Positions 12,088 to 20,458 of a stretch of DNA of 20,458 bases are shown piece by piece; positions within the stretch are counted from its first letter, which is position 1; each line of letters begins with the position of its first letter. The notes below the pieces were generated by a model. It saw nothing but the letters and a program-made list of their open reading frames with translations, had not been told where the DNA came from and searched no databases. Both the position numbers and the translations under genes were made by a program. This stretch comes from a virus. The stretch spans positions 1 through 20,458 of IMG/VR virus record IMGVR_UViG_3300025117_000249; one strand, 5' to 3'.

Positions 12088-14319
12088 TTATTTCTGAAAG
12101 CTCTGCCCATCCGGCGCACGACCGGGCGGCTCAATCGGCGGCGTAGGCAAAGCGCTGGCTGGCGCACCAATTGCTGCCAGCTCCTTCGTGGTGCGCAGCT
12201 TCATTGCATCCCGCGCCAACTGCGTCTTGAGCGTGTCCAGCGTGATCTGGTGCTTATTGGCGTAGTCCAGCATAGCCAGTTCGCGCTTCAGTTGCAGCTC
12301 GGCAAAACGGCTTTCTGCCATCGACTGCGCATTATCGCGCAACTGCTGGACGTATGCAGAATCTCTATCGGTGTCCATGCGCATCTTCTCGACCGCCGCC
12401 TGAGAGCGCATCTGCTCCTTCTGCAATTCGGCGTTCGCCCGAATCTCGGCAGCCTCGACCTGCGGTGCTTTCGGCTGCGGCTGTTGCTGCATCGCCTGCT
12501 TCTTCTCGTCGTCAAGCTGCGCGTCCCTCGGGTCGATGCGCTTGGTCTTTAGCCACATCGCGTAGACCTTCTCGGGGTCTGCGCCGAAGGCTGGATTGAG
12601 ACTCAATTGCAGAGCTTGAGTGATGGTCAGCTCTTGGATGGCCTTCTCGACCAGCGCAGACGTTCCGTGCGCGTTGATCTTGAAGTCGCCCTTTTCCTCA
12701 ATTGGCACATCAGGGTCAAGCAGCAGCCACTCGTAGAACATCAGTACCAGCGGCTCGGTGATCGAGTCATCCAGCATCGCGCCACGCTCACGTAGGAACG
12801 ATAGGGCGTTATTGTTTTGCAGCTCGGCCTGTCCGTATGTCTGCGGACTTGCGCCATCAGCATAGTTACCCTGCGTCACCAGCGGGATCGAACTGTGCTG
12901 CTCGGCCAGACTCAGCGCATACTGAATGATTGGCATCAGAGATGCCTGTACGTTCGGAATCTCGAAGATGTGGAATGCCTTGCGCACATCGTCCATCACT
13001 GCGTCAGCAGCCTTCCACCATATCTTGTTGCGGGTGATGGCCCATTGCTGGTCAGCCGGGACGACCAGCCCGCGATCCATTAGAATCTGCACCCCTGAAG
13101 ATATACCGGCGTTCTCCAGCACGGCGCGTGTGGCTGCATTAACCATGCGCTGCGGCATAGATACCTGCTCACCCACCCCGACACCGGCCCAATGTCCAGC
13201 CCGGCGACTCCACGAAAATACATGGTACGGGAACTTGCCAGAGTCCAGCGGATTCATAATGCAGCGCACGATGGACTCGTTCACCAGCGTGACTATGGCA
13301 TGAGCCTCATCCACATCTTCCGGCAGGCCATCTATTCCGCAAGCCTCAAGCTCTTCGCGCGTCAACATGCCGTAGAACTGCCACATCTCGTAGCGGCGAC
13401 GCCGGGACTTCTCCTCTTGTTGTCCGTCTTCCCGATAGCACTTGCCCGGCCCTTCGATGAGCACCTTGTCTATCTGCGCGCCGCTCCAGCCCTTGCGCTT
13501 GGCTAACTCGCGCAGACGCTTACCGGAGATGTAATCGCGCTCGAATACATAGTCGCCGTCGTGGATGTTCTCGCCGCAAGCCGGATCAGGAAATAGATTC
13601 TGCGGATCAATGTGGCGCGTCACCGGGACGGTATTTTCCTCGATCACCAGCGAAATCACATCACCATCGCGGCTCACCGCCTGCGACTTGCTCTTGTCCG
13701 GGATCGGGCCTTTCAGCACGCCAACGCCAAGACGGGCAGAGTCGTGGATGACCTTGCGCAACTCAGCCGTATGGCGGCACTCTACCATCCAGTCGAAGAT
13801 TCGCATCTCTGCCTTCTTCGCGGCATCGCGTGCCTGCTCAAGCATCTGAGCGATGATGGTCTTAGCCGGGACTTGTACAGGGTTGCCGCTCTGATCCATC
13901 GCAGCAACCGGCGTTTCGTCCTTCATTCGATTCACCAGATCAGGGATCGGTGTAGGATCAAACGCGAATGCCTTGTCGTCTATCGGTAGAGCGATCTCGG
14001 ACAGCTTGGACGAGGCAAAATCAACGTAGCGGCTGGTGAGGCGGACGAATGCTGTTGAGCGCGTATCGTCCTGCTGCATGTCGCTGGTCGATACCGGGCC
14101 ATCGATGGAACGAGACTTGGCCCACTTCGCGCCCTGGAACTCATGCCGATTCGCGTCGTCGATGCCGAGGTAAGCATCCTCGCACTTCTGCCAGATGTCC
14201 TCAATGCCAGATTCCTTGCGCGCCTGTACCGCCTCGTCACGCTTCTTGGCAATAATCAGGCTGATAGCATCCAGCCGCCCCTGCTGATCCTTCTCGGAGG
14301 CTTTGCGACGGATCGCCAT
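12088..14319 (-). CDS. Portal protein (podovirus type)
   Basis: A 743-aa protein, the size range of large P22-like and related podovirus portals. The N-terminus is helical (KKRDEAVQARKESGIEDIWQ) and leads to DDTRSTAFVRLTSRYVDFAS and a long body including RHIDPQNLFPDPACGENIHD, a portal-typical turn, and GKFPYHVFSWSRRAGHWAGV followed by a helix that would line the channel (SMPQRMVNAATRAVLENAGI). The last 150 residues are Gln- and Ala-rich coiled-coil (EIRANAELQKEQMRSQAAVE and beyond), consistent with a C-terminal barrel or core-facing extension, ending in a Pro-rich tail. It stands between the terminase and scaffold modules, as usual. The ribosome site before ATG 14319 is weak and the upstream stop is only 3 bases away, so coupling to the preceding gene is likely. 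Confidence 0.9.
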   Translation of the reverse strand: MAIRRKASEKDQQGRLDAISLIIAKKRDEAVQARKESGIEDIWQKCEDAYLGIDDANRHEFQGAKWAKSRSIDGPVSTSDMQQDDTRSTAFVRLTSRYVDFASSKLSEIALPIDDKAFAFDPTPIPDLVNRMKDETPVAAMDQSGNPVQVPAKTIIAQMLEQARDAAKKAEMRIFDWMVECRHTAELRKVIHDSARLGVGVLKGPIPDKSKSQAVSRDGDVISLVIEENTVPVTRHIDPQNLFPDPACGENIHDGDYVFERDYISGKRLRELAKRKGWSGAQIDKVLIEGPGKCYREDGQQEEKSRRRRYEMWQFYGMLTREELEACGIDGLPEDVDEAHAIVTLVNESIVRCIMNPLDSGKFPYHVFSWSRRAGHWAGVGVGEQVSMPQRMVNAATRAVLENAGISSGVQILMDRGLVVPADQQWAITRNKIWWKAADAVMDDVRKAFHIFEIPNVQASLMPIIQYALSLAEQHSSIPLVTQGNYADGASPQTYGQAELQNNNALSFLRERGAMLDDSITEPLVLMFYEWLLLDPDVPIEEKGDFKINAHGTSALVEKAIQELTITQALQLSLNPAFGADPEKVYAMWLKTKRIDPRDAQLDDEKKQAMQQQPQPKAPQVEAAEIRANAELQKEQMRSQAAVEKMRMDTDRDSAYVQQLRDNAQSMAESRFAELQLKRELAMLDYANKHQITLDTLKTQLARDAMKLRTTKELAAIGAPASALPTPPIEPPGRAPDGQSFQK

Positions 14320-14322
14320 CGC

Positions 14323-14922
14323 TTAGTCGCGCCCGTTCGGTTGCAGGAAGGTTGCCGTAACCGCGCCGGCCGCGGTGAACTGCACCGCCATTGCCCGCAC
14401 CGGTACAACCTGCTGACCACCAAAGTTAGCCGTCTTGCCGGCGATGGTGCCGTGTGCGATCCATGCGGAACGGTCGTAGCTCACCACCACGCCAAAGTTG
14501 GGGGAACCTGAAACCACCGTACAGCCGATGCCAACATTGAACTCGCCGCCGCTGTTCAGGTCTGGCTGGAACCACGCGCCGCGCGAGCCAGCCGCCCAGC
14601 CGATGTCAAAAGTATCCGCGCCGATGGTGGCTGAAGGTGTCGCGCTGGTCAGTGTCTTGAAATACTTGGTCGATGTGACGGTTGCGGACGTGCCGGGGGC
14701 CGCAATTGTCTCTGTCTGCACGTTGCCGTTCTCGTCTGTGCCGACCAGCGCAATCGTCTTGGCAGAATGATCTGTGGCGGTATTGTTCAGCACCGTCACC
14801 AGATGGCCGAGTCCGTCAGATGTAGCCGTAGTTGCCATGGCAAACGTCGCACCCGTCACGCCAGCAGCAAAGCCTGCCGTCGCAGCAGCGGCGCTATCCA
14901 TCACTTGTATGGTCGATTTCAT
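14323..14922 (-). CDS. Putative virion protein between terminase and portal
   Basis: A 199-aa beta-rich protein with few charges and high Ala, Gly, Thr and Val. Landmarks are a short helical N-terminus (STIQVMDSAAAATAGFAAG), SDGLGHLVTVLNNTATDHSA near residues 35-55, a strand-rich middle (TIALVGTDENGNVQTETIAA) and FQPDLNSGGEFNVGIGCTVV further on. This Thr/Ala-rich, strand-turn-strand style is common in phage surface or decoration proteins. Its position between terL and the portal is unusual for a decoration gene, so a neck or head accessory role is also possible. The ATG at 14920-14922 has GGAG upstream after a hairpin and T-run cassette, suggesting separate tuning from the terminase genes. 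Confidence 0.6.
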   Translation of the reverse strand: MKSTIQVMDSAAAATAGFAAGVTGATFAMATTATSDGLGHLVTVLNNTATDHSAKTIALVGTDENGNVQTETIAAPGTSATVTSTKYFKTLTSATPSATIGADTFDIGWAAGSRGAWFQPDLNSGGEFNVGIGCTVVSGSPNFGVVVSYDRSAWIAHGTIAGKTANFGGQQVVPVRAMAVQFTAAGAVTATFLQPNGRD

Positions 14923-14937
14923 TGTTCGGCTCCAAAT

Positions 14938-14957
14938 AAAAAACCGCCCGGAGGCGG
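14938..14957 (-). terminator. Terminator-like hairpin after the terminase nuclease gene
   Basis: Stem CCGCC (14944-14948) with GGCGG (14953-14957), 4-base loop, followed in minus reading by six T (14938-14943) and ATTT. It starts 2 bases after the terL-C stop and ends about 15 bases before ATG 14922, with GGAG directly after the T-run. Confidence 0.75.
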
Positions 14958-14959
14958 CG

Positions 14960-15724
14960 TTACAGCCCCATGCCGGGGACGGTTGTTCTGTAGGTCGGGA
15001 TGTTCACTGTGTTCTGCGGCGTATGCACCTTGGCATAACGCTTCATCATCAGCCCGTAGCGCGAGGCAGAAATCAGGTCATCGAATTCCTTGATAACCTT
15101 CCCGTCCTTGCGGTGGTACAGTCGGAACTCATCGAACCATTCCGGAACAGTCGAGAATACCTTGAGGCGTCCTGTTTCCATGCGCTCAAGCATGTCCATC
15201 AGCCCAGCCTCTACGCCGTTCGTACCATCCTCGAAGGTCGCGCGCTCCGGCAGCATGTTCAGCCCTGCGGACTTGTACTGCCGCGCCAACTGCTCACCGG
15301 AACCCTTGTCGTGCTGCAAACCGTCATGCGGCCAAGCCACCGGCACCCATGCGCCCCACGGCTTGACCGCTGCGGAGACGATGGCCGGGATAGCCTCGCT
15401 CTTCTTGTACCCATGCGTCACATAAAATACATCGTTGTCACGATCCCATGCGCACCCAGCTACAGCGGTCGGGTGATCCCATCCGAAATCCAGCCCGTTG
15501 ATGCGCGGCCAGAAGTTCGGAATCTGGAACGGAGATACCTTGATCGACTCTTCATCCACCGGGAAGATTGCCCCGCTGCCCAAGGTCGGGATACCCTTGG
15601 AGCGGGCATCGCGCAGGTGCACAGGCGTTGATGCCCGCAATTCTCTCTTGGTCGTCGCGGTCAAATGCGGGACATCATCCCAGCCCGCCATCACCAGGTA
15701 TTTCGATTCGCTTATCTGCGGCAT
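14960..15724 (-). CDS. terL: Terminase large subunit, C-terminal nuclease part (split gene)
   Basis: The start chosen is ATG 15722-15724, overlapping the stop of the ATPase cistron as TAATG, with GGGAAGG about 10 bases upstream in that gene. The 254-aa product begins MPQISESKYLVMAGWDDVPH, the segment that in intact large terminases follows the ATPase domain directly, and then carries the RuvC-like nuclease signature: GLDFGWDHPTAVAG (D79), PHDGLQHDKGSG (D134) and FDDLISASRYGLM (D215/D216). It would cut concatemeric DNA during packaging. All three acidic positions are present, so it looks functional. The frame is also open upstream to 15838, but that stretch overlaps the ATPase cistron and has unrelated composition. 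Confidence 0.85.
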   Translation of the reverse strand: MPQISESKYLVMAGWDDVPHLTATTKRELRASTPVHLRDARSKGIPTLGSGAIFPVDEESIKVSPFQIPNFWPRINGLDFGWDHPTAVAGCAWDRDNDVFYVTHGYKKSEAIPAIVSAAVKPWGAWVPVAWPHDGLQHDKGSGEQLARQYKSAGLNMLPERATFEDGTNGVEAGLMDMLERMETGRLKVFSTVPEWFDEFRLYHRKDGKVIKEFDDLISASRYGLMMKRYAKVHTPQNTVNIPTYRTTVPGMGL

Positions 15725-16467
15725 TATTTCGGCACCTTCCCGCCCGGCAGGAACGACAGCGCCGTGGGCGTCATCCCATCCAGCGGGGTAAACGTGATGT
15801 AGATCAGCCCGTCCGTGGTCGCGGTACGGATAAGGCACTCGCCGTATATCTCCAGCGGCGGCTCTTCGTCCAGCCAGATGCCATCCTGCTCGGTTCCCTC
15901 AAACGCGCCTCGCCCTTGCTGGTAACTCTTCAGCCCAAGCACCGACCAACCATCAAACTCGCCATTGGTGTAGTGCTTTACCTTGATCGTGTCGATCAGG
16001 TCTTGCACACCCTGCTTCCATGTGATGCTGCCGATGTCATCGCCCGGAACCAGCCCAGTACCGGAAACGCCCTTGCGCGGGCCGTCGAACTCGATGGCCC
16101 CGAACAGCTTGGCCTGCACGATGTCGCGCGTCGTCTCGTTGGTCTTGCCTGCGGCCCAAAACTTCACCGGAGCGTCGTAGATCGAACCTTCCCACCAGCC
16201 AGGATACCGTCCTGTCAGGTGTAAAGCTGTTTCATACCCGCCCGCGCCCTCTGTCTTGCCGATTCGATTGGCCGCCATGAAGCACCGCTCGCGGTACGTC
16301 GCGCCAACTCTGAAAAACTCCATGTGCTTCGGATACAGCTCGCGTCGGAGCGATCCGGTTTCAGGGTAATAGTCGAATAGCTTGCTTCGTTTTAACTTCA
16401 GCGCCGCCTCTTTTCGCAGCGCATCGCGCGCAGACTCGGGCAGGCTATCAAGCCAGCTCAAATCCAT
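15724..16467 (-). CDS. terL: Terminase large subunit, N-terminal ATPase part (split gene)
   Basis: A 247-aa protein with all ATPase motifs of a large terminase: Walker A AANRIGKT (residues 65-72) in the T7/P22-like deviant form, Walker B GIWLDEEP (196-203) with the catalytic Glu, and the coupling motif YITFTP (223-228). It then stops at TAA 15724-15726, just after SFLPGGKVPK, where an intact protein would continue into the nuclease domain. Together with the next cistron (254 aa) the total is about 500 residues, a normal full length. ATG 16467 overlaps the terS stop as TGATG. The split could be a natural two-subunit arrangement, a frameshift mutation or a sequencing error; see findings. Confidence 0.88.
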   Translation of the reverse strand: MDLSWLDSLPESARDALRKEAALKLKRSKLFDYYPETGSLRRELYPKHMEFFRVGATYRERCFMAANRIGKTEGAGGYETALHLTGRYPGWWEGSIYDAPVKFWAAGKTNETTRDIVQAKLFGAIEFDGPRKGVSGTGLVPGDDIGSITWKQGVQDLIDTIKVKHYTNGEFDGWSVLGLKSYQQGRGAFEGTEQDGIWLDEEPPLEIYGECLIRTATTDGLIYITFTPLDGMTPTALSFLPGGKVPK

Positions 16468-17051
16468 CAGTTCTTTGCACTCAATCGATCAACAATCGCA
16501 ACCAACATCTCGCGTGGCAGCGCGTCAAGAGGGTTCACCTTCTGCTCGTTGTCCTTCTCGAACATGCCCAAGTGCTTCATGGCTTGCTCGCGCGCCCCCT
16601 GGCGTTGCGCCCACTTGTACTTGCGCACGAATACCGGAGCGTCCTGGCTGCCTAGCTGCTCGAACTCGACCGAGGCCAGCGCCATGCGTGTATCCTCGTC
16701 AAGCTCGGTGATGTCCTTGAGCTGACCTCCAGCAGCGTACAACTTTGCCGGATCGAACGTCAGCTCCTGCACGATGCTCTTGACCACCAAATCAGTCGTC
16801 AGCTCGTACTTTTTTGCCACAGATTTCGAGCGGTCAGCAATTGAACGCTGAATTTCAACATTCTTCAACAAGCGCCCACCTTGACTATACGCTGTCTTGG
16901 CGCTGTATCCGGCTGTCTTGGCGGCCTCTGTAGCATTACCACCATTGGCGATATATGCCTCAACAAAGTTTGCCTTACGCGCCTTTGCTGCATCCTGTGA
17001 GTTGCCTTGCTTTGACTTCTTCGCAGTCGGCTTCTTTGCCTTTGCGGTCAC
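16467..17051 (-). CDS. terS: Terminase small subunit
   Basis: A 194-aa protein with the Terminase_2 pattern: a Lys-rich N-terminus (residues 1-25), then FVEAYIANGGNATEAAKTAG with YSAKTAYSQGGRLLKN (about 29-64), the helix-turn-helix that recognises packaging DNA, then a helical oligomerisation region and a charged C-terminus. The start is a GTG at 17049-17051 that overlaps the stop of the 48-aa gene (GTGA); no better ATG is near. The first bases of this gene lie in the 128-bp repeat shared with 17381-17508. Its end is coupled to the ATPase cistron (TGATG). Confidence 0.88.
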   Translation of the reverse strand: MTAKAKKPTAKKSKQGNSQDAAKARKANFVEAYIANGGNATEAAKTAGYSAKTAYSQGGRLLKNVEIQRSIADRSKSVAKKYELTTDLVVKSIVQELTFDPAKLYAAGGQLKDITELDEDTRMALASVEFEQLGSQDAPVFVRKYKWAQRQGAREQAMKHLGMFEKDNEQKVNPLDALPREMLVAIVDRLSAKN

Positions 17052-17150
17052 GCTGCTACCTCTTCATCCTCCACGATGTTCTCGCGGATGCTGGCCTTGA
17101 TCTCGGCCAGCGTGATGTCCACGCCCTCCGGTGGTACGGTACCATCCGGC
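17023..17150. repeat. 128-bp direct repeat, copy A (terS start and 48-aa gene end)
   Basis: This copy matches 17381-17508 with about eight mismatches and no gap, at a constant offset of 358 bases. It covers the first ten or so codons of terS and the 3' half of the 48-aa gene. In the 28 codons before the stop the four differences are all silent (GGC/GGT, ACG/ACC, GCC/GCT, GCA/GCG). Confidence 0.9.
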
Positions 17151-17194
17151 CCCATAGCTGGCATTTTCTTGTCAGGCTTCTTCTTGGCTACCAT
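17048..17194 (-). CDS. 48-aa truncated duplicate of the 90-aa gene, coupled to terS
   Basis: ATG 17192-17194 to TGA 17048-17050. The first 20 residues (MVAKKKPDKKMPAMGPDGTV) are unique, basic and unlike the 90-aa gene, while the last 28 (PPEGVDITLAEIKASIREN and on to VEDEEVAA) are identical in protein to the end of the 90-aa product. GAGG lies upstream of the ATG, inside the end of the 70-aa gene. The stop overlaps the terS GTG. It appears to be a duplication remnant that keeps the conserved acidic tail and probably serves, at least, to couple translation into terS. Function unknown. Confidence 0.75.
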   Translation of the reverse strand: MVAKKKPDKKMPAMGPDGTVPPEGVDITLAEIKASIRENIVEDEEVAA

Positions 17195-17196
17195 GA

Positions 17197-17409
17197 TTAA
17201 ACCTCTGAAAACCCTACGTCATTTTTGCCTTCGATGTGCCATATCCGCATCGTTCCGCCTTGATATGCAAAATCGTTTGCTGTTATTGATTCTCCGTACC
17301 GGTTGAATTCAGCAACAATCTCTTCGGTAGGACGCATTTTGCCGCCATCCCCCTTTACCCATTTACGCCATTGTTTGCTTGCAGCCGACTTCTTTGCCTT
17401 TGCGGTCAC
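17197..17409 (-). CDS. 70-aa chimeric ORF whose start is a copy of the terS start
   Basis: It starts with GTG 17407-17409 overlapping the stop of the 90-aa gene (GTGA). The first seven residues, MTAKAKK, are the same as the terS start because they lie in the direct repeat. The rest (KQWRKWVKGDGGKMRPTEEI, later ANDFAYQGGTMRIWHIEGKN) has no resemblance to terS and none to a family I know. It ends 3 bases before the next ATG. The likely history is that a foreign sequence became fused to a duplicated terS start. An internal ATG at MRPTEEI could be an alternative start, but the coupled GTG is more likely. Confidence 0.65.
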   Translation of the reverse strand: MTAKAKKSAASKQWRKWVKGDGGKMRPTEEIVAEFNRYGESITANDFAYQGGTMRIWHIEGKNDVGFSEV

Positions 17410-17508
17410 GCCGCTACCTCTTCATCCTCCACGATGTTCTCGCGGATGCTGGCCTTGATCTCAGCCAGGGTGATGTCCACACCCTCCGGTGGTACGGCAT
17501 CATCCGGC
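17381..17508. repeat. 128-bp direct repeat, copy B (70-aa start and 90-aa gene end)
   Basis: Partner of 17023-17150. It includes the 3' end of the 90-aa gene and the first codons of the 70-aa ORF. Homology ends sharply on both sides. The unit between the copies carries the 70-aa ORF and the unique start of the 48-aa gene. Confidence 0.9.
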
Positions 17509-17678
17509 AAGCCCAACAGGTACTCGGCGCGCTCTTGGACGGCCTTCACCATCCCGGCACGATCTTCATCCGAGATAGGCAGAGGTGCGAATACGCCCGT
17601 GTACTCCCCGGCATTCATGCCAATGAATTTCCCGTCCGGCGTCTCGAACTCATGGACGCTGATCTTCAGCTTCAGCAC
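17406..17678 (-). CDS. Small acidic phage protein (90 aa), parent of the duplicated tail
   Basis: The start is GTG 17676-17678 directly after the TAA of the 98-aa gene, with GAGGGCGAG just upstream. The 90-aa product begins MLKLKISVHEFETPDGKFIG, a beta-like N-terminus, then helical sequence (DRAGMVKAVQERAEYLLGLP) and the acidic tail PPEGVDITLAEIKASIRENI followed by VEDEEVAA that is duplicated in the 48-aa gene. Silent-only differences between the copies suggest that the tail is under selection. No family is recognised. It is one of a cluster of small genes before terS and could be a packaging or lysis accessory; this is inference from position. Confidence 0.65.
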   Translation of the reverse strand: MLKLKISVHEFETPDGKFIGMNAGEYTGVFAPLPISDEDRAGMVKAVQERAEYLLGLPDDAVPPEGVDITLAEIKASIRENIVEDEEVAA

Positions 17679-17975
17679 TTACTCGCCCTCGCGGGTGCGC
17701 ACCAGCATGGGGGATGGCGCAGGCTTGCCGTACCCCTCGTTGAATGCCTCATCTCCTGTGCCTCCACCTTGGGCATACAGGTCTTTGGCCTTCGCCAGCG
17801 CGGCGTCGATGCTTTCCACGGGAATGCCTTCCTCGCCGCTCTCATCCGCATCTAGCGGGCCTGACTCTACGGTGATCTTGCCTTCTGCGCTCACGCAGAT
17901 TTCAATGCAAAATCCACCTGGCGTATCAGCGCCATCGTCCATCCCTGCCATCCCTGCCATCATATTGCCGTCCAT
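17679..17975 (-). CDS. Small acidic Gly/Met-rich phage protein
   Basis: A 98-aa protein. A Met/Gly-rich start (MDGNMMAGMAGMDDGADTPG) is followed by a short strand region (GFCIEICVSAEGKITVESGP), an acidic linker, a helix (VESIDAALAKAKDLYAQGGG) and a polar tail. Proteins with this IEICV...ITV...A.A..L pattern occur as unannotated small proteins near phage terminase and lysis genes. ATG 17973-17975 has GAGGGGTGAGG upstream. It ends exactly where the 90-aa GTG begins, so the two are probably translated together. Function unknown. Confidence 0.65.
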   Translation of the reverse strand: MDGNMMAGMAGMDDGADTPGGFCIEICVSAEGKITVESGPLDADESGEEGIPVESIDAALAKAKDLYAQGGGTGDEAFNEGYGKPAPSPMLVRTREGE

Positions 17976-17992
17976 GCCTCACCCCTCGTTGA

Positions 17993-18424
17993 TTACTTCA
18001 TCACCAGATGCAGCACAGCCGCACCCAAAATTCCCATGATCCCAGTCACTCCAGCGAGTACCCAGCCGCGCACCATCTTTAGCGACTGCATCTCTGATTC
18101 GATGGCGGATATCTTCTCGCCATGCTTGTCGGCGATCTCCTTCTGTGCGTCTCTGCACATATGGCAATCAGATTCTTTTACGCGAGTATCTTCAAGCGCT
18201 TTGACTCGGATATTACTAAGCGAATCAATCTTGAGATCGCATTTTTCAATTGCGATAAATGCGCGAGTCACGCCTGCGCGCGTTTCCTCGTGGTGCGCCT
18301 CTAGCCTAGTCAGCGTATTTAGCGACTCGGCGATGCTCTCAACTGCGGCAGACACTCGCTCAAAGCCGCGCTCAAGATTGGTTACGCGGTGGTCGAGTAC
18401 CGCATTGTTGTTGCATTCGTTCAT
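17993..18424 (-). CDS. Coiled-coil protein with C-terminal membrane anchor, lysis-linked (XhlA-like topology)
   Basis: A 143-aa protein. Residues 10-118 are mostly helical and charged with heptad-like spacing (for example VSAAVESIAESLNTLTRLEA), and residues 120-140 are one hydrophobic span (GWVLAGVTGIMGILGAAVLH) followed by VMK. This coiled-coil plus C-terminal TM layout resembles XhlA-type holin accessory proteins; an N-in spanin normally has its anchor at the N-terminus, so it is a poor match to an i-spanin. CHMC at 87-90 is a CxxC. The start overlaps the holin stop (ATGA), so it is made with the holin. A role in lysis is inferred from coupling and topology. Confidence 0.6.
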   Translation of the reverse strand: MNECNNNAVLDHRVTNLERGFERVSAAVESIAESLNTLTRLEAHHEETRAGVTRAFIAIEKCDLKIDSLSNIRVKALEDTRVKESDCHMCRDAQKEIADKHGEKISAIESEMQSLKMVRGWVLAGVTGIMGILGAAVLHLVMK

Positions 18425-18993
18425 CTTGCGCCGAGCCCCTTGACTGCCTGCGCCATCGCATCAGACTTATCCTTGCTTCCTTGGCTGCTCCCAAAAAAAT
18501 AGCCAATCACCTGCTGCGCATTAGCGGCCATGTATCCGATCACCGTACCGACAAAGGTCGCCACCGCAGCCACCGTCCCGGCATCGACACCGCTCAATCC
18601 CTTAGTGAGCAATTGGTAGCACCCGTACAGTGCAAGCGCCGACAATAAGGCAAAGGCCAGCAGCACCACTACACCAAGCCAAAACACGCGCTCATTCTGG
18701 CCAAAGGTGTGCCGCGCATCTCCGGTATCTGCCACGAATACCTTTTCCTCGTCGATTTGCAATTTGCGCATCTCGATTTCCTGCGCCATCATTGCCTTGC
18801 GGTACTGCAACATTAGCTCGGGATTATCCTCCAGCGCCGTGATAGCCAGCTCGCCGGTAGGCGCGCCTGTAATGCCTTTGGCGATGTCGATGGCCGTCTG
18901 CGCTACCTGCTCTGCCTTATCGCTGCCGGTGATCCACTTAGCTATCTGCGGCACAAATTGCGCTAGCCCCATGGCGATTGTGATTGGATTCAT
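18421..18993 (-). CDS. Holin, GTA-type three-TM family
   Basis: The start chosen is ATG 18991-18993 because an upstream ATG at 19062 would place a terminator inside the gene. The 190-aa product has an amphipathic start (MNPITIAMGLAQFVPQIAKW), a helical charged middle including a DNPELMLQYRKAMMAQEIEM-type stretch, then TM segments at about 103-129 (VFWLGVVVLLAFALLSALAL) and 138-158, and the conserved end QVIGYFFGSSQGSKDKSDAM at about 161-180. This matches GTA_holin_3TM-type holins. It would permeabilise the inner membrane to release endolysin. The ribosome site is weak, and a hairpin precedes it. Confidence 0.85.
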   Translation of the reverse strand: MNPITIAMGLAQFVPQIAKWITGSDKAEQVAQTAIDIAKGITGAPTGELAITALEDNPELMLQYRKAMMAQEIEMRKLQIDEEKVFVADTGDARHTFGQNERVFWLGVVVLLAFALLSALALYGCYQLLTKGLSGVDAGTVAAVATFVGTVIGYMAANAQQVIGYFFGSSQGSKDKSDAMAQAVKGLGAR

Positions 18994-19008
18994 CTCTGAT
19001 GCCCAAGT

Positions 19009-19032
19009 AAAAAAGCCCGCATTAGCGGGCTT
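19009..19032 (-). terminator. Terminator upstream of the holin gene
   Basis: Perfect 8-bp stem AAGCCCGC (19013-19020) with GCGGGCTT (19025-19032), 4-base loop, then TTTT in minus reading (19009-19012). On the plus side a T-run also follows (19038-19045), so it may work in both directions. A second GCTGCG/CGCAGC hairpin (19048-19071) stands just upstream in the transcript. The gap 18994-19086 holds these two structures and nothing else visible. Confidence 0.8.
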
Positions 19033-19086
19033 GGTGTGTTTTTTTGCGCTGCGACGAAACAAAACCGCAGCTTACAAAAAACGATG

Positions 19087-19284
19087 CTACAGCATAACCA
19101 TCACAAATACAACTGCGATGTTGTTGAGTTTTTTTAGGCCTATGCTTGCAGTCAGGACGCGCAATTCTTCCAAATATTCCCTACCCTCTTGGAAGGTTTC
19201 AAGTTCGCTCTCTGTTATGGCTAGCCCGTAATCAGCTACCGTTTCAGGCTTTTTTAGCCGTCGCCACTTTTCTTCCTGTGTCAT
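19087..19284 (-). CDS. 65-aa protein with hydrophobic C-terminus, unknown
   Basis: ATG 19282-19284 overlaps the stop of the 188-aa gene (ATGA). The first half is charged and helical (MTQEEKWRRLKKPETVADYG), then ITESELETFQEGREYLEELR, and the end (NNIAVVFVMVML) is hydrophobic but only about 9-10 residues, too short for a normal membrane span. The gene stops at TAG 19087-19089. It lies just before the terminator and the holin. Any lysis role is unproven. Confidence 0.55.
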   Translation of the reverse strand: MTQEEKWRRLKKPETVADYGLAITESELETFQEGREYLEELRVLTASIGLKKLNNIAVVFVMVML

Positions 19285-19847
19285 GTGAAATCCACGTCCA
19301 GCAACCCATGCTCAAGCATGGCCTCCTCCAGCCTCGCAGACACTCCCGTTCCGATCCGATCCAGCGCATCGTAAGCCTGCTTCCGGTATTCCGGTATCGC
19401 ACTTAGGCGGCACTTAAGATCAGCGCGTAGAGAGTGCATCCCGATAGGCTGCCCGAAGTAGCTGCGCACTAGCCCTGCATAGCCTCGGCGAGAGTGCATC
19501 CCGGTAGGCAGCGCAGCGATCACCGCGACAGTCAGCGCCTCCGCCACGGCGTTTGACATCATCACGCGCGAACGCTGCTCCTCCCGCAACTCTGCGCGCA
19601 CAATCACGTCGCGGCAATCCAGCGCGTGGCAATACCGAGCCATAACATAGGCACGTCCGACGACCTCAGAGTCGAGGGTGCGATCCACCAGTGACCAGAT
19701 GAGCGCAGCCTGCCCGCGCTTATCGAGCGCGCTCATTTCCACCTTCCCACCGCCAGCCATCATCCCGAACACCGACGACCCCTTGACTACCGGGATACTC
19801 GATACCTGCGACGCCCACCGGATGGCATGATCTACCGACCTAAACAT
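19281..19847 (-). CDS. Unidentified phage protein, possibly regulatory
   Basis: A 188-aa mostly helical protein. The start (FRSVDHAIRWASQVSSIPVV) and DKRGQAALIWSLVDRTLDSE followed by GRAYVMARY (about 42-70) resemble proteins in phages that I have seen annotated as regulators or antiterminator-like, but no diagnostic residue is visible. Residues about 113-140 hold two copies of GMHS(R/L)R exactly 20 residues apart, encoded by a 19-bp near-repeat. The C-terminal part is helical (AYDALDRIGTGVSARLEEAM). GGGGAGG precedes ATG 19847 inside the end of the small basic gene, so translation is coupled. Function unknown. Confidence 0.6.
   Translation of the reverse strand: MFRSVDHAIRWASQVSSIPVVKGSSVFGMMAGGGKVEMSALDKRGQAALIWSLVDRTLDSEVVGRAYVMARYCHALDCRDVIVRAELREEQRSRVMMSNAVAEALTVAVIAALPTGMHSRRGYAGLVRSYFGQPIGMHSLRADLKCRLSAIPEYRKQAYDALDRIGTGVSARLEEAMLEHGLLDVDFT
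19431..19509. repeat. Short in-gene direct repeat, 19 bp, 60 bases apart
   Basis: Copies at 19431-19449 and 19491-19509 agree at 18 of 19 bases with a 60-base period, so they encode the same peptide in frame (GMHS motif). Sequence between them is not repeated. This could be a local slippage or duplication remnant. Confidence 0.7.
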
Positions 19848-20009
19848 TTACCGCCTCCCCTGTTTTGCCAATTTAACCTGCCGCCTGTGTCGGCGTGATT
19901 TTTTCTGCCGTTCGCGCTCTGCCAACCTCTTTTCGATCTCGCTACGCTTGCGCAGATAGTCTACGCAGTTTGCCGGATCGCCATAGAGCATTGATGGGAG
20001 CAAGACCAT
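19848..20009 (-). CDS. Small very basic protein (53 aa)
   Basis: ATG 20007-20009 to TAA 19848-19850. The product starts MVLLPSMLYGDPANCVDYLR and is strongly basic in its second half (KRLAERERQKKSRRHRRQ and on), with Arg and Lys making up about a third of residues. It may bind nucleic acid, but composition alone is weak support. No Shine-Dalgarno stands out, only TAAG before ATG; a second ATG at 19991 lacks one too. Its end is directly next to the 188-aa start (TAAATG), so it likely provides translational coupling. It follows the endolysin by 56 bases. Confidence 0.55.
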   Translation of the reverse strand: MVLLPSMLYGDPANCVDYLRKRSEIEKRLAERERQKKSRRHRRQVKLAKQGRR

Positions 20010-20065
20010 TACTTATCAGATTGCAAACAAAATGGTTCTTGACTTGAAAACCTGCATGGCTAATC

Positions 20066-20458
20066 TCATTTGATTGATAGGCACAATTTATGAAACAACT
20101 CCCGCTCCTTCATCCCGTTAATCCCGCCGTTGATGCGCCTCGTGATGCGCACGAAGTCGCCAGAGTCGGCCAACTCATTGAGGCCATGCCGCCCCCAGAA
20201 CCATGCGGCAGATATTGCGGCATTGATGGGTGCTTCCAGCAGCTCAGGGAAGCCGATCAAGTCAAGGCCAAGCGCATCACCGGTTGACTTGTAGTTCGCT
20301 CGTCCTGTGATCTGGATCAGCCCGCGCCCCCTGAATCTAAATCCGTCTCCCTGCTCAATATTGCCAAGGTCTGCGCGGCCTTCATATTTTGCTTGCGCTG
20401 GAGTCGGCCCCCATAGCTCTTTGACGTAGGCTAAGCGGCCCGACTCATGCATGATTTG
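20066..20458 (-). CDS. Endolysin, GH19 chitinase-like lysozyme, 5' end missing
   Basis: The frame continues past the right edge; reading from the edge gives QIMHESGRLAYVKELWGPT, so an ATG at 20452 is internal, not the start. HESG carries the GH19 catalytic acid Glu, and the family signature GFRFRGRGLIQITGRANY follows about 35 residues later, with KYEGRADLGN between. The C-terminal part includes SAAWFWGRHGLNELADSGDF and TRRINGG, also typical of phage GH19 endolysins. It would cleave peptidoglycan glycan strands. There is no visible binding domain after the catalytic domain. It heads the lysis module; the holin lies about 1 kb further along the transcript. Confidence 0.9.
   Translation of the reverse strand, partial: QIMHESGRLAYVKELWGPTPAQAKYEGRADLGNIEQGDGFRFRGRGLIQITGRANYKSTGDALGLDLIGFPELLEAPINAAISAAWFWGRHGLNELADSGDFVRITRRINGGINGMKERELFHKLCLSIK

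Follow-up and report, generated by a model that had tools for sequence, protein, structure and literature searches.

A direct repeat upstream of terS suggests junction duplication with gene insertion in a phage packaging operon

Introduction

Phage morons are accessory genes inserted between conserved operon genes; the classical ones carry a promoter and terminator of their own. Translationally coupled overlapping genes, on the other hand, are joined by ATGA or GTGA overlaps. In phage T4, tandem amplification arises via recombination at microhomologies of 6-10 bp, for example at the dmd-tifA locus (PMC9391042).

Here, we describe a locus upstream of the terminase small subunit gene, terS, in IMG/VR virus record IMGVR_UViG_3300025117_000249, of which the whole stretch of 20,458 nucleotides analysed is referred to as the window. 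Like segmental amplification in T4, this locus appears to hold a local head-to-tail duplication that made new gene-gene joints. However, the T4 events are freshly selected, cover a whole locus and use 6-10-bp microhomology, whereas the repeat in the window is 128 bp long, is 6% diverged and has DNA of foreign composition between its copies. In line with morons, the 70-aa ORF p70 is a small, AT-richer ORF of foreign composition that lies between conserved late genes and is absent from relatives; unlike them, p70 starts by overlap with the preceding 90-aa gene, p90, and would borrow the terS start signal through duplication of the junction. Finally, the locus resembles coupled overlapping genes in that each of the two joints has a GTGA overlap whose SD lies within the preceding coding sequence, yet here the coupling unit itself seems to have been copied, with coupling apparently surviving the insertion.

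Results

All genes of the operon lie on the minus strand, and the transcription order is p98-p90-p70-p48-terS, followed by terL, which consists of two ORFs. The features are given below in window coordinates; L002 denotes the relative IMG/VR 3300013232_000120 (loci L022 and L024 are the same record).

17679..17975, minus strand: p98, gene for a small acidic protein, 38% identical to L002 p100; opens the conserved p98-p90-terS order
17406..17678, minus strand: p90, 90-aa gene with its final 29 codons duplicated; 58% identical to an L002 116-aa protein
17381..17508, minus strand: repeat copy A, with the p90 tail, SD-like GAAGAGG, GTGA overlap and p70 start
17197..17409, minus strand: p70, 70-aa ORF with duplicated terS start codons and a body of foreign composition
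17151..17380, minus strand: unique 230-bp segment that separates the copies and holds the p70 body and p48 head, GC 0.46-0.47
17048..17194, minus strand: p48, 48-aa ORF with a new head and the p90 tail, GTGA overlap into terS
17023..17150, minus strand: repeat copy B, with the p48 tail, SD-like GAAGAGG, GTGA overlap and terS start
16467..17051, minus strand: terS, terminase small subunit (Pfam Terminase_2 PF03592, E 1.3e-25; PHROG 51)
15724..16467, minus strand: terL N-terminal half (ATPase), a separate gene outside the repeat (Terminase_6N PF03237, E 5e-13; phrog_31467, E 5e-79)
14960..15724, minus strand: terL C-terminal half (nuclease), outside the repeat (Terminase_6C PF17289, E 1.3e-27)

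The assignment of terS reaches 91 bits against Terminase_2, for which the Pfam cut-off is 26.1. Proteins similar to p98 occur in other terS-bearing contigs, often directly ahead of terS; for p98 itself, PHROGs (searched to E 0.1) and Pfam and NCBIfam (both to E 1) gave no match. Small acidic p98-like proteins were seen near terS in L014, L038, L055, L056 and L066.

A repeat search recovered the direct repeat of 128 nt at exactly the coordinates given in a preliminary description of this DNA, with 94% identity between the copies and a spacing of 358; the runner-up repeats in 14000-20458 are 31-32 nt long with 72-81% identity. The copies mismatch at 8 positions and share an exact run of 50 nt. 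Simulating the window 20 times with a first-order Markov model gives 12-18 nt as the longest exact direct repeat, and the window minus one copy gives 15 nt, so chance is excluded as the source of the repeat. The block spans approximately 30 last codons of p90, the SD-like stretch, the GTGA overlap and approximately 10 first codons of terS, in agreement with the earlier claim that one copy duplicates the 3' end of the 90-aa gene together with the start of terS. Among the relatives and loci searched, no other record carries the 358-base unit.

The gene ends match accordingly. Specifically, p90 and p48 have 29 codons plus the stop in common at their 3' ends, and p70 and terS begin with 7 identical codons (GTGACCGCAAAGGCAAAGAAG), after which Ser/Pro and Ala/Thr differ, in agreement with the view that the 70-aa ORF uses the duplicated terS start and the 48-aa gene the duplicated tail. 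In both copies, SD-like GAAGAGG stands seven bases ahead of the GTG start (of p70 and of terS), and the GTGA overlaps that had been described are present at both p90/p70 and p48/terS. Additionally, p48 has its own SD-like CAGAGG seven bases ahead of its ATG, within the end of p70. These ordinary signals suggest that, in vivo, coupling links each gene of the chain p90-p70-p48-terS to the next. Within the shared 29 codons, four differences are found (GGT/GGC, ACC/ACG, GCT/GCC and GCG/GCA), all of them synonymous, which has a probability of 0.003-0.007 under random substitution; in the two codons immediately 5' of the shared p90/p48 stretch, the differences are non-synonymous. The structure predicted for p90 (AF2, pLDDT 85) places the duplicated tail in a helix (71-79) and a strand (82-84), and a fold search of viral structures and the PDB gave no match with E below 0.1. 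RNA folding of the copies is more stable than that of shuffles (z -3.2 for copy B and -2.1 for copy A). An RNA element in the repeat was considered and rejected: judged by eye, L002 retains the protein but not the first hairpin, and there is no Rfam match.

The DNA between the copies differs from its surroundings in composition, as had been proposed for the 70-aa ORF. The 230 bp segment is AT-richer, with a GC content of 0.46-0.47 compared with approximately 0.60 on the p90 side, and the p70 body has a codon score of -0.15, the lowest of the ORFs tested (the others range from 0.00 to +0.26, and the neighbouring phage genes from +0.07 to +0.26), its own frame being its best. By contrast with this low value, p48 scores +0.15 in frame, and p48 and p90 both score as phage-like coding sequence. 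Searches of phages, plasmids, viral contigs and sampled genomes turned up confident relatives of neither p70 nor the p48 head and identified no source for the inserted segment, and p70 is absent from L001-L003 and from every other locus fetched. Since neither a source nor another phage carrying it was found, the p70-p48 insert could be a short-lived variant. A reading of the p70 body as a captured piece of a polyprenyl-phosphate sugar transferase is no more than a weak lead. The plasmid and genome matches of p70 fall mostly in a sugar transferase family with the same alignment (one other match is a thymidylate synthase by sequence), with E 0.067 against NCBIfam undeca_RfbP and a single genome match at E 1.2e-6; Pfam, searched to E 10, gave none. 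From four p70 matches a profile was made that beat 100,000 shuffles, but it had been picked from those same matches. The predicted structure of p70 alone was set aside (pLDDT 66). The most likely identity of p70 is that of a moron-type accessory gene.

In L002, the order is p98-p90-terS with no repeat, no p70, no p48 and nothing in between, and the identities to the window are 78% for terS (best segment), 38% for p98 and 58% for p90. This order supports an uninserted ancestral state. Among all loci fetched, a p90 relative was found in L002 only, and searches of viral contigs with p90, p70, p98 and tail patterns likewise returned L002 as the sole relative. Because the C-terminal end of p90 is conserved between the window and L002 (LAEIxxSIRENIVE), the tail appears to be native to p90 and the p48 copy derived from it. 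The nearest relative by terS, L001 (86%), is without p98 and p90 upstream of terS; since L002 alone shows the uninserted order, with p90 at only 58%, no close sister displays the state before insertion. It had been pointed out that relatives with the four-gene order and unrelated sequence in the shared region would speak against a duplication; what the relatives provide instead is the uninserted order of L002, and a duplication is the origin of the repeat that the sequences support. In L003, a free-standing 49-aa ORF with CPDCDGSGKC lies just before terS (384-533), and its end aligns with that of the p90-like protein in L002 (24 aa, 83%, E 9e-11), while no p90 head was found upstream. The C-terminal stretch of this ORF was seen fused to the p90-like protein in L002 (3591-3941).

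Next to the repeat, terL of the window consists of two ORFs: the ATPase half (16467-15724) ends in TAATG, and the nuclease half runs from that ATG to 14960, both on the minus strand. L001 has the same TAATG junction, near which the N-frame protein is the same, whereas conservation is lower in the other frame ahead of the ATG. In the viral loci closest to the N half (L119-L198), the TerL halves are in separate ORFs in 70 of the 79 loci and in one ORF in the other 9, a count that comprises only loci with both halves found and includes some near-duplicates. The junctions vary, being TAATG, an 8-base overlap (ATGCCTGA), ATGA, or gaps of up to 3.8 kb with other ORFs. ORFs that look HNH-like by eye lie between the halves in L121 (5655-6197), L133 (1345-1887) and L155 (6055-6639). 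Rfam intron families were absent from the 13 loci checked, which are mostly gapped ones and include those with HNH-like ORFs. On a tree of 90 non-identical TerL N halves (58 split and 32 fused), at least 7 state changes are needed compared with 21 or more when shuffled, which argues that the split is inherited rather than a random sequencing error. The GenBank phages examined have a single terL. Interruption of terL by inteins (PMC7156551) and by group I introns (PMC12363816) has been reported, and we found no description of a two-gene TerL in the open-access papers searched. Additionally, the N half of the window TerL is 58% identical to the L014 type and 45% to L002, whereas the C half is 59% identical to the L002 type and 44% to the other, with the affinity switching near residues 270-330; the window TerL therefore looks recombinant by sequence.

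Discussion

We propose that the locus probably arose when the p90/terS junction of an ancestral p98-p90-terS operon, as in L002, underwent duplication with insertion, coupling being preserved. In this event, the p90 tail, the terS RBS, the GTGA overlap and the first terS codons would have been copied, with approximately 230 bp of foreign-composition DNA coming to lie between the copies. Copy A would leave p90 whole while its terS start signal serves the new small gene p70; copy B would retain the original terS start signal, reached via the short ORF p48, which ends in the p90 tail and GTGA. The operon would thus gain a gene and stay translationally coupled all the way from p90, via p70 and p48, to terS. 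We think that the p48 tail is retained mainly as the carrier of the terS RBS and the stop-start overlap, and perhaps also as a small protein.

The preliminary description went further and took both tails as seemingly kept as protein. Such a reading, in which the p90 C-terminal helix is separable and p48 is a functional free copy, for instance a partner or decoy of p90, draws on the silent differences, on conservation of the tail at the protein level in L002 (SIRENIVE), and on L003, where the ORF that matches the tail has no p90 head upstream, so a p90-type tail can stand alone. All four differences did prove silent, in a stretch of 29 rather than 28 codons, but the pattern does not prove that both tails act as proteins: the differences number four, p48 is without an orthologue, the DNA of the tail doubles as carrier of the terS start signal and coupling overlap, so that constraint on the DNA would account for part of the conservation, and divergence in two lineages or separate phages may have come before the copies were joined. 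Retention as protein is thus not established, and we hold this reading to be possible but somewhat unlikely. A bolder extension would make the p90 tail and terS start a portable coupling cassette that, when copied, lets genes slip in at the start of the packaging operon with TerS supply maintained, the p90 C-terminal helix being a mobile module that is fused in L002, duplicated in the window and alone in L003; this idea is quite doubtful.

Two further readings were weighed. The window is a single-contig IMG/VR-type virus record, probably metagenomic, and the 50-nt exact core falls in the range of short assembler k-mers, so two strain variants might have been joined via the 50-bp identical core, or the 358-bp units miscounted. 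Copy-specific variants, however, flank the core on both sides in both copies, both ORF joints are clean and coupled, and an assembly error would alter the number of units more than the attachment of p70-p48 to the repeat; we judge an artefact improbable. Genes for terS are often near packaging sites, which raises the thought that the copies are remains of genome ends, that is, of a direct terminal repeat, with captured DNA as filler at the join. A repeat-filler-repeat arrangement beside terS is the geometry expected of end joining, and the filler is foreign in composition, but the copies are 6% diverged, no terminal repeat is known from the present data for this phage or its relatives, and the logic of the gene junction alone fits the repeat borders well, which makes such an origin highly improbable.

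Duplication of the p90/terS junction with insertion is an ordinary kind of phage genome change, tidy in its details. The repeat itself is of moderate interest, and the adjoining two-gene TerL matters more: its presence in a whole phage group would bear on whether the ATPase and nuclease need a covalent link for packaging. As for the operon, the locus illustrates compactly, in a natural setting, how tightly overlapping phage genes may admit a new one while translation of an essential gene downstream is kept intact: the overlap and RBS would be copied along with the insert.
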